A program made the translations under genes and the position numbers. A stretch of DNA of 64,000 nucleotides from Geodermatophilus dictyosporus (lineage in GTDB: Bacteria; Actinomycetota; Actinomycetes; Mycobacteriales; Geodermatophilaceae), in contig NZ_FOWQ01000002.1 in NCBI RefSeq assembly GCF_900115505.1, positions 1 through 64,000 of the forward strand, given 5' to 3'. Below, in pieces: positions 23,430 to 27,237 of this stretch; position 1 is the first letter of the stretch, and every line of letters begins with the position of its first letter. The notes under the pieces were generated by a model. That model saw only the letters and a list, made by a program, of their open reading frames with translations. It did not search any database and was not told the origin of the DNA.

Positions 23430-24608
23430 TCAGCTGACGGTGACGACGGGCGGGCCGGACGCGACGCCGCCGTTGAGCTGCTCGCCGGCGAGAGGCATCC
23501 CCTCCGCGATCTTCAGAGCCTCCTCGATGAGGGTCTCCACGATCTGCGACTCGGGGACGGTCTTGACCACCTCGCCCTTGACGAAGATCTGGCCCTTGCC
23601 GTTGCCCGAGGCCACACCGAGGTCGGCCTCGCGGGCCTCGCCGGGACCGTTGACGACGCAGCCCATGACCGCCACGCGCAGCGGGACCTCCATGCCCTCC
23701 AGGCCGGCGGTGACCTCGTCGGCCAGCTTGTAGACGTCGACCTGCGCACGCCCGCACGACGGGCAGCTGACGATCTCCAGGCCGCGCTGGCGCAGGTTGA
23801 GCGACTCGAGGATCTGGTTGCCGACCTTGACCTCCTCGGCCGGCGGGGCCGAGAGCGAGACGCGGATCGTGTCGCCGATGCCCTGGGACAGCAGCGCGCC
23901 GAAGGCGACGGCGGACTTGATGGTGCCCTGGAACGCGGGGCCGGCCTCGGTGACGCCGAGGTGCAGCGGGTAGTCGCACTGGGCGGCCAGCAGCTCGTAG
24001 GCGCGCACCATGACGACCGGGTCGTTGTGCTTCACCGAGATCTTGATGTCGCGGAAGTCGTGCTCCTCGAACAGCGAGCACTCCCACAGCGCCGACTCCA
24101 CCAGCGCCTCGGGCGTGGCCTTGCCGTACTTGGCGAGCAGCCGCTTGTCCAGCGACCCGGCGTTGACGCCGATGCGGATCGGGATGCCGGCGCCCTTGGC
24201 CGCCCGGGCGATCTCGCCGACCTTGTCGTCGAACTTCTTGATGTTGCCGGGGTTGACCCGGACCGCGGCGCAGCCGGCGTCGATCGCGGCGAAGACGTAG
24301 CGCGGCTGGAAGTGGATGTCGGCGATCACCGGGATCTGCGACTTCCGCGCGATGACCGGCAGCGCCTCGGCGTCGTCGGTGTCGGGGACGGCGACCCGCA
24401 CGATCTGACAGCCCGACGCGGTCAGCTCGGCGATCTGCTGCAGCGTCGCGTTGACGTCGGCGGTCTTGGTCGTCGTCATCGACTGCACGCTGACCGGGAA
24501 GTCGCTGCCGACGCCGACGTCGCCGACCATGAGCTGGCGGGTCTTGCGGCGCGGGGCGAGGACGGGTGGGGGCAGCGCGGGCATGCCGAGACCGACGGAG
24601 GTGGCCAT
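23430..24608 (-). CDS. ispG: 4-hydroxy-3-methylbut-2-enyl diphosphate synthase (flavodoxin/ferredoxin)
   Basis: 392-aa [4Fe-4S] enzyme of the MEP isoprenoid pathway that reduces methylerythritol cyclodiphosphate to HMBPP. The TIM-barrel part begins at [15 protein letters not shown]. The cluster-binding cysteines are in SCPSCGR and [11 protein letters not shown]. Normal single-domain length. ATG at 24606-24608. It lies 41 nt after rip1 and, with dxr two genes upstream, makes a partial MEP operon. Confidence 0.97.
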
Positions 24609-24649: not shown

Positions 24650-26038
24650 CTACTGCAGTGTGATCGGGTTGACCACGTCGGCGACCAGCAGCAACCCCGA
24701 CAGCGCGATGAACAGGCCCGCCACGACGTAGGCGACCGGCATGAGCCGGGCGATGTCGAACGGGCCGGGGTCGGGGCGGCCGCGCCAGCGGGCGACCACC
24801 GAGCGGGCCTTCTCGTACAGCGCGCCGGCCACGTGCCCACCGTCGAGGGGGTAGATCGGCAGCAGGTTGAACAGGAACAGCACCAGGTTGACGCTGGCCA
24901 GCAGGCTGAGGAAGAAGCTCAGCTTCTCCGCGCCGCTGAACTCCTGGATGGCGAAGACCTCGCCGGAGATGCGGCCCACGCCGACGACGCCGATCGGGCC
25001 GTTGGCGTCGCGCTCCTCGCCGAGGAAGGCCGCGCGGAACAGCTGCGGGATGCGCTCGGGGATCTCGACCAGCCGCTGCACCGACTGCGAGACGACCATC
25101 CCGAAGTAGCCGGGCAGGGCCGACGGGGACTGGCGGGCGAAGCCGAACACCGGGCCGACGCCGAGGTAGCCGGCGGTCATCGTGCCCTCGCCGTCGTCGG
25201 TGGGGACGACGTTCTCGATCGGCGTGACGGTGAGCTCGCGGCGCTGCCCGTCGCGCTCGACGGTGAGCTCGAGCGGCTCGTCGGCCGACCCGCGGATGGC
25301 CTGCTGCACCGTGGTCCAGCTGTCGTAGGCCGTGGGGTCGAGCGACTGCCCGTCGACGGCCACGATGGTGTCGCCGGGGCGCAGTCCGGCCTCGGCGGCG
25401 GGGCTGGCCACGGGGGCCGCGCAGCCGGGGGTGCCCTGCTCGCAGACCTGGCCGGCGTCGGCGCCGGTGGCGACGATCGGGATGGAGCAGACGTCGCGGT
25501 CCTGCTCCTCGGCGAGCTGGATGCTCTCCGCGCCGGCCGGGACCACGCAGGCGGGCACGGCGTCGACCTGGGTGGTGATGACGTTGGTGCCGATGGCGGT
25601 CAGCGTGACGGCGAAGAAGACGAGCGCCAGCACCAGGTTGTGGAACGGCCCGGCGAACATCACGACCACCCGCTGCCACCAGGGCTTCTTGTAGAAGACC
25701 CGGTCGCCGTCGCTGGGCAGCACGTCGTCGAGGGCCTGGCCGCGGACCTCGGCGATGAAGGTGCGCATGCGGGTGGCCCGCTTGCTCTCGTTCTCCTCGG
25801 CCGGCGGGATCATGCCGACGATGCGGATGTAGCCGCCCAGCGGGATGGCCTTGACGCCGTACTCGGTCTCGCCCCGCGTCCGGGAGAACAGCGTGGGACC
25901 GAAGCCGACCATGAACTGCGGCACCCGCATGCCGAACTTCCGGGCCCAGAAGAAGTGACCGAACTCGTGGAAGCCGATCGAGAACAGCAGCCCGACGAAG
26001 AAGGCGGCGATCCCGAGGACGGTCAGGAGCGTGCTCAG
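24650..26038 (-). CDS. rip1: Site-2 protease / RIP metalloprotease (Rip1/RseP), probable CTG start
   Basis: 462-aa membrane zinc protease that cleaves anti-sigma factors and other membrane substrates. Starting at the CTG at 26036-26038 gives a first membrane segment with HEFGH (His24, Glu25, His28), the zinc site. A PDZ domain (about 190-270) and a C-terminal motif [12 protein letters not shown] follow. The first ATG (25928-25930) lies downstream of HEFGH and would delete the active site. No ATG, GTG or TTG exists in between. GGAGG lies 6 nt before the CTG, and the CTG overlaps the dxr stop as CTGA, the same 4-nt geometry used throughout this window. A sequencing error is the alternative. Confidence 0.9.
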
Positions 26039-27237
26039 CTCGGTCCTCCGGCCAGGGCGGCGCGGGCGTGCTGCCGGGCCCAGCGCTCAGCGGCCAGCAC
26101 GTCGTCCACGCAGGTGGGTGCGCCGAGGTCCGGCGCGTCGTCGAGGGTACGCGCGACCAGTCCGACGACGTCCGGGAAACGCAGCCGGCCGGCGAGGAAG
26201 GCCGCGACCGCCTCCTCGTTGGCCGCGTTGTACAGCGCCGGGACGACGCCGCCGGCCTCCCCCGCCGCGCGGGCCAGCCGGACGGCGGGGAACGCGTCGG
26301 CGTCCAGCGGCGCGAACTCCCAGGTGCTCGCCGTCGACCAGTCCAGCGCCGGCTGCACGTGCGGCAGCCGGTCGGGCCAGGCCAGGGCGAGGGCGATCGG
26401 CAGCCGCATGTCCGGCGGGCTCGCCTGGGCGATGGTCGCGCCGTCGGTGAAGGTGACCATCGAGTGCACGATCGACTGCGGGTGCACGACGACGTCGATG
26501 TCGGCGTAGGGGACGCCGAAGAGCAGGTGCGCCTCGATGAGCTCCAGGCCCTTGTTGACCAGGGTCGCGGAGTTGATCGTCACCACCGGACCCATGTCCC
26601 AGGTGGGGTGGGCGAGCGCCTGCGCAGGGGTGACGTCGGCGAGCTCGGCGGCGGCGCGCCCGCGGAACGGGCCGCCGCTGGCGGTGAGCACCAGCCGGGC
26701 CACCTCGCCGCGCGCGCCGCCGCGCAGGCACTGGGCCAGCGCGGAGTGCTCGGAGTCGACCGGCACCAGCTGACCGGGCCCGGCCGCGGCGAGGACGAGG
26801 TCCCCGCCGGCCACCAGCGACTCCTTGTTGGCCAGGGCCACGGTGTTGCCCGCCCGCAGCGCCGACAGCGTGGGCCCGAGCCCGATGGAGCCGGTGATGC
26901 CGTTGAGGACGACGTCGGTCCGGCGGGCGGCGAGCTCCTCGGCCGCCCGGGGGCCGGCGAGGATCTCCGGCAGCGCGTACTCGCCCCGGGCCCACCCGCG
27001 CCGGGACGCGGCGGCGTAGAAGGCCAGCTGCAGGTCCTGGGCCGCCGTCGCCCGGGCCACCGCCACCGTGCGGACGCCGAGGGTGAGGGCCTGGTCGGCC
27101 AGCCGGGCGACGTCGCCACCGCCCGCGGCCAGCGCGGTGACCCGCAGCCGGTCGGGGTTCTGTCCCGCGACCGCGACCGCCTGCCGGCCGATGGAGCCGG
27201 TGGAGCCCAGCAGGGTCACCTCGCGCGGCTCGCTCAT
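26035..27237 (-). CDS. dxr: 1-deoxy-D-xylulose-5-phosphate reductoisomerase
   Basis: 400-aa enzyme of the MEP pathway making methylerythritol phosphate with NADPH. The cofactor loop [11 protein letters not shown] is at the N-terminus, NKESLV and the metal ligands in PVDSEHSA follow, with the flexible loop near HPTWDMG and the [11 protein letters not shown] signature towards the C-terminus. ATG at 27235-27237 with GGGAGGAT. It is the first gene of the dxr-rip1-ispG-GNAT cluster. Its stop codon overlaps the CTG start of rip1. Confidence 0.97.

Follow-up and report, generated by a model that had tools for sequence, protein, structure and literature searches.

Site-2 proteases of the RseP/Rip1 type (family M50B; structures 7w6x, 7w6y and 9j82) combine an N-terminal HExxH motif, a PDZ region and an LDGGH motif, all of which are also present in the Rip1 protein encoded in the window, the 64,000-nucleotide stretch of Geodermatophilus dictyosporus DNA analysed here (contig NZ_FOWQ01000002.1, positions 1 to 64,000). 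The window gene differs from these systems in that it is predicted to begin with CTG and in that its product stays below the cut-off of the NCBIfam RseP equivalog model TIGR00054. Retention of a rare non-AUG start in a single gene by several species is known from the AUU starts of infC and pcnB in enterobacteria. The rip1 case resembles these in that a poor start is kept in one gene, and differs in the codon (CTG), in the gene concerned and in showing as yet no sign of autoregulation. A further point of comparison is the coupling of adjacent genes through four-nucleotide ATGA or GTGA overlaps of stop and start, in place of which the dxr-rip1 pair of the window has CTGA and 75/98 of the relatives with CTG have no overlap. 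In E. coli, CUG initiation complexes are formed with the initiator tRNA at lower stability and start choice is relaxed by a mutant tRNA (PMC11497404), whereas the anticodon stem of the putative initiator tRNA is normal here.

The rip1 gene lies on the minus strand at 24650..26038 (stop included) and encodes 462 amino acids when read from the CTG at 26036..26038. This frame contains the zinc-binding motif HEFGH (25955..25969), a PDZ region (PDZ_6, 46.9 bits) and, at residues 398-402, the LDG-type second conserved active-site region LDGGH (24833..24847), and its best sequence matches among solved structures were RseP-type proteases. The Pfam Peptidase_M50 profile (PF02163) matched the CTG form with an E value of 1.1e-48 and 165.9 bits, above the gathering score of 27.2, and aligned from profile position 1, whereas the form beginning at the first ATG aligned only from position 26. 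The match to TIGR00054 reached 134.6 bits, under the cut-off of 147.55, and the name Rip1 is therefore based on the domains present and on the order of the genes. When only ATG, GTG and TTG were allowed as starts, the open reading frame was shortened to 24650-25930 (426 amino acids), beginning at the first in-frame ATG (25928..25930, 3' of HEFGH); an HExxH motif in the N-terminal membrane region is part of the product only if the frame begins 5' of this codon. Upstream on the same strand lies dxr (26035..27237), whose terminal TGA (26037-26035) shares CTGA with the rip1 start; its name follows a preliminary description of the locus. Downstream, also on the minus strand, follows an ispG-like gene (23430..24608), known from its sequence only. 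The order dxr-rip1-ispG-like is also that of RseP/Rip1 systems elsewhere.

Direct reading of the minus strand confirmed the observation of the preliminary description at the positions it gives: the location of the first ATG (25930-25928) after HEFGH (25969-25955), the absence of any ATG, GTG or TTG from the upstream in-frame stop (26087..26089, with 16 codons between it and the CTG) to HEFGH, and the spacing of 6 nt between a GGAGG Shine-Dalgarno sequence (26045..26049, read as 26049-26045) and the CTG (26038-26036). Its claim that annotation truncates the enzyme stands for an open reading frame list limited to ATG, GTG and TTG, which is its sole basis.

The dxr-rip1 junction was then compared across the Geodermatophilaceae. 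From a sample of 112 genomes, 109 matched and 108 had a readable junction; G059, G095 and G097 were left out as they were without a match, as was G060 (L116), a contig fragment with an internal stop and HEFAH that also reads CTG. The main clade was taken as 99 genomes of nine genera (g1-g4 and g8-g12), and nine outer genomes (g5-g7) were counted apart. The aligned start codon was CTG in 98/99 main-clade genomes and TTG in one (G093), counts that are not independent because the genomes are related, and a Shine-Dalgarno core stood 5-7 nt ahead in 98/99 (GGAGG at 5-7 nt in 88, GGAG at 5-6 nt in 10 more). These comparisons, which the preliminary description had proposed, strongly support its suggestion that rip1 starts at CTG. 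The outer genomes all have ATG: in four it aligns with the main-clade CTG (MSG for LSG), and the other five have it in a shorter N-terminus. Genera g6 and g7 have short Rip1 N-termini, and Rip1 of the outer genomes is the least similar to that of the window (63-72% identity). In other families, 31/31 genomes read had ATG, GTG or TTG at the rip1 start or no more than a few codons away, comprising 19/19 chosen from five families and 12/12 loci of a sixth family in which 13 genomes matched. The rip1 gene of Streptomyces fuscigenes starts with ATG. One of the 20 named Geodermatophilaceae-like dxr-rip1 loci discussed below lies on a contig labelled UNVERIFIED Bacillus sp. AZ43 (L163), a label that looks wrong.

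In a tree of 127 sequences built from the codons around HExGH, all 99 main-clade genomes formed one clade (support 0.84), and the whole family was not resolved from the outgroups; because the tree does not split the two, we infer an ATG ancestor from the outer genomes. The rip1 start codon changed once on this tree. For comparison, a leucine column at -16 (65 CTC, 33 CTG) changed 13 times, a leucine column at -7 (CTG in 89/99) changed 6 times and invariant four-fold columns changed 5-25 times; invariant two-fold columns changed 0-1 times, and one quiet triplet is therefore no proof of selection. Among all leucine codons in the compared rip1 stretch, CTG accounted for 389/599. As far as sequence comparison goes, CTG is very probably the true, inherited start of rip1.

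That the CTG arose through faulty sequencing or assembly has a negligible probability, and the occurrence of the same codon in relatives excludes a sequencing error: 97 further genomes of the main clade read CTG here, as do 20/20 named Geodermatophilaceae-like loci, some of which belong to genomes already counted in the 108. The outcome that the preliminary description had set against a CTG start, relatives with ATG or GTG together with an error here, is not what the relatives show. An alternative explanation is that rip1 starts elsewhere, at a TTG, GTG or ATG in the first membrane segment, at an upstream GTG within dxr or at a near-cognate codon such as ATC. Some ATG, GTG or TTG does occur between the CTG and HExGH in 42/99 genomes, including a TTG at codon 4 in several, and the first usual codon within 15 codons upstream is GTG in 21/99 and ATG in 2/99. 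We nevertheless regard another start as improbable. The alternatives vary by genome while the CTG and its Shine-Dalgarno sequence are constant, the TTG at codon 4 is about 14 nt from the Shine-Dalgarno sequence, and the very codon that is CTG in the main clade is ATG in four outer relatives. Furthermore, 57/99 genomes are free of usual codons between the rip1 start and HExGH, and in at least 15/99 the whole interval between the upstream stop and HExGH is free of them. The latter count is a minimum, since many sequence stretches end before reaching that stop; in two of these 15 genomes, only 5 codons separate the upstream stop from the CTG.

The geometry of the junction bears on a further possibility, namely that a Dxr-Rip1 fusion arises via ribosomal frameshifting and rip1 has no separate start. 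With the dxr frame set by homology, dxr either overlapped the start codon or ended no more than 16 nt from it in 98/98 CTG genomes, which speaks for a fusion. The frame of dxr relative to rip1 was however +1 in 32, +2 in 65 and 0 in 1 of these genomes (stops from -19 to +1), so that no single shift would serve, and a GGAGG or GGAG core precedes the start in all but one of the 99. A conserved fusion is excluded by this inconstant offset, and we consider frameshifting altogether very improbable. The dxr stop overlapped the CTG in 23/98 CTG genomes and was 1-16 nt clear of it in 75/98 (-4 in 53, -16 in 10, -5 in 9 and elsewhere upstream in 3). The CTGA overlap reported in the preliminary description is thus present in the window but is not a general rule, and the small share of overlaps together with the varying dxr frame indicates that dxr does not fix the CTG in place. 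That description had also likened CTGA to a four-nucleotide geometry in 13 other pairs of the window. A rough check with crude gene calls found 9 GTGA and 3 ATGA junctions, but also 8 CTGA junctions including that of rip1 (8/20 in the window); in 464 kb of this genome (GC 75.6%), crude calls gave CTGA at 33/104 NTGA junctions. CTGA junctions are common in this DNA, and the geometry alone is therefore weak evidence for a start.

We give a probability of about 0.87 to the reading that Rip1 is translated from CUG by the ordinary initiator tRNA, here and in nearly all main-clade genomes. The strong and well-spaced Shine-Dalgarno sequence would help initiation at this codon, and ribosomes terminating on dxr may also feed it. 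Of 417 crude gene calls of this genome, 77 have GGAGG ahead of a usual start close to the gene boundary, and the far higher frequency of GGAGG at rip1 (88/99) fits compensation for a poor codon. A finer balance between Shine-Dalgarno and codon strength lacks support, because nine CTG genomes also have GGAG only. The sole main-clade genome with TTG (G093; L097) has GGGAG in place of GGAGG. One tRNA-Met gene was examined (L210, 16128-16202). Its anticodon stem contains the three G-C pairs usual for an initiator, and on this basis we read the gene as such; a relaxed initiator tRNA is not indicated, because this stem is normal. Folding of the RNA at five dxr-rip1 junctions gave z-scores from -1.11 to 1.88, nothing unusual.

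We surveyed other genes for candidate CTG starts by running a crude gene caller based on codon usage over two stretches, one of 464 kb from this genome (430 genes) and one of 400 kb from a second species (366 genes); the caller recovered rip1, dxr and the ispG-like gene in the right frames. A BLAST survey of stop-to-stop reading frames had been swamped by shadow frames, and the codon-usage caller was used instead. Among genes with coding signal 5' of the first usual start, rip1 ranked first in both species, and the leads common to both were a DEAD-box helicase, prmC, a uridine-kinase-like gene, a small membrane protein and a spermidine-synthase-like gene. The names prmC, uridine-kinase-like, spermidine-synthase-like and AsnC-type (see below) are provisional. 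Scoring by Shine-Dalgarno and coding signal made CTG the best start in 104/417 genes of genome G000, clearly too many; this list was used for leads only, and cases present in two species were followed.

The DEAD-box RNA helicase gene (plus strand, L270 1501-3231; G000:C6:325518) has a conserved candidate CTG start preceded by GAGGCGAGA or a sequence much like it. We sampled 50 of the 108 searched family genomes, made up of the best 30 loci (L270 with L271-L299) and 20 chosen ones (L320-L339), and read CTG in 47/50. Among the best 30 loci, CTG was found in 29 (one of which also has TTG two codons on) and TTG in one. The further chosen main-clade genomes had CTG in 12/12. Of eight outer genomes, six had CTG, two of them with a further ATG 5 or 15 codons on; of the remaining two, one has ATG and the other, as we read it, GTG. 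Outside the Geodermatophilaceae, CTG was present in 12/15 loci of family f15 (L352-L366), two of them with an additional ATG six codons upstream, and a usual codon stood clearly at the aligned place in 10/12 loci of family f4. On these alignments, the putative CTG start of the helicase is older and wider than the rip1 case. In one f15 genome (L358), the aligned place holds no usual start codon and no CTG either.

On the minus strand, prmC (G000:C6:210660; L240-L269) probably starts at CTG as well. We read CTG in 24/27 loci and ATG in 2; the starts of L256, L262 and L263 among the 30 loci were unread. The prmC case is weaker, because its CTG overlaps the stop of the preceding gene and is without a clear Shine-Dalgarno sequence. 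The preceding gene is presumably prfA.

For rip1, the switch from an ancestral ATG to CTG would date to the base of the main clade, and the codon may have been retained since a poor start would limit a membrane protease whose excess would do harm. In PMC4633059, a reporter selection in M. smegmatis with a consensus Shine-Dalgarno sequence left CTG at 0.03%, not enriched, compared to 20.5-28.7% for ATG, GTG and TTG, suggesting that related ribosomes use CTG poorly; yet the codon is kept in nearly all main-clade genomes across nine genera. Switches from AUG to CUG are likewise rare, with 2 reconstructed among 61,358 ancestral AUG starts in PMC5622118. Given this selection and the rarity of such switches, Rip1 output is likely low, and it is plausible that the CTG keeps Rip1 scarce. 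The rip1 gene makes a dosage role of poor start codons directly testable.

Somewhat short of even odds, in our estimate, is the competing explanation that the CTG is indeed the start of rip1 but that its weakness is of no use, the codon working well enough with a strong Shine-Dalgarno sequence and having persisted by descent. The prevalence of GGAGG at rip1 is compatible with this, the genomes with GGAG only manage with CTG, and candidate CTG starts in other genes of the family suggest that the lineage tolerates them. The change of prmC from CTG to ATG in the two loci, which belong to different genera, also suggests that such starts can drift. However, the first base of the rip1 CTG is free of dxr in most CTG genomes, three changes at this base would give a usual start, and one was seen in the 99 genomes. 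By comparison, changes to AUG were found at 4.0% for GUG and 1.7% for UUG in 36 groups of close genomes in PMC5622118.

Whether CTG starts form a real, inherited class in the Geodermatophilaceae and actinobacterial kin, marking rip1, the helicase, prmC and perhaps other genes whose output is low or regulated by start stringency, is a more tentative matter, and we hold such a class to be possible but rather unlikely. If it exists, gene finders limited to ATG, GTG and TTG are blind to it. More generally, the rip1 case suggests that CTG starts may be under-annotated in GC-rich actinobacteria and that enzymes may be recorded without their active sites. Within the journals covered, a literature search brought up no text that we recognised as a description of these CTG starts. 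In a 400 kb outgroup stretch, coding signal reached 8 or more codons 5' of the first usual start in 24 genes, compared with 9 and 14 genes for the two Geodermatophilus stretches; at a gain of at least 10, the outgroup had 2 genes against 4 and 3. Because the outgroup is not short of genes with upstream signal, we claim no genome-wide rate of CTG starts. A further lead, an rsgA-like gene (G000:C6:266032), was not found in genome G004 by pattern search. The uridine-kinase-like gene (G000:C6:298954, plus strand) has coding signal 5' of its first usual start and a CTG at a CTGA junction, and the same is seen in G004. The small membrane protein gene that follows an AsnC-type gene (G000:C6:88018, plus strand) has a CTG candidate without a clear Shine-Dalgarno sequence, also present in G004. 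The spermidine-synthase-like membrane protein (G000:C6:262328, minus strand) has CTGAGCGAGCG as its candidate start, which is the same in G004.
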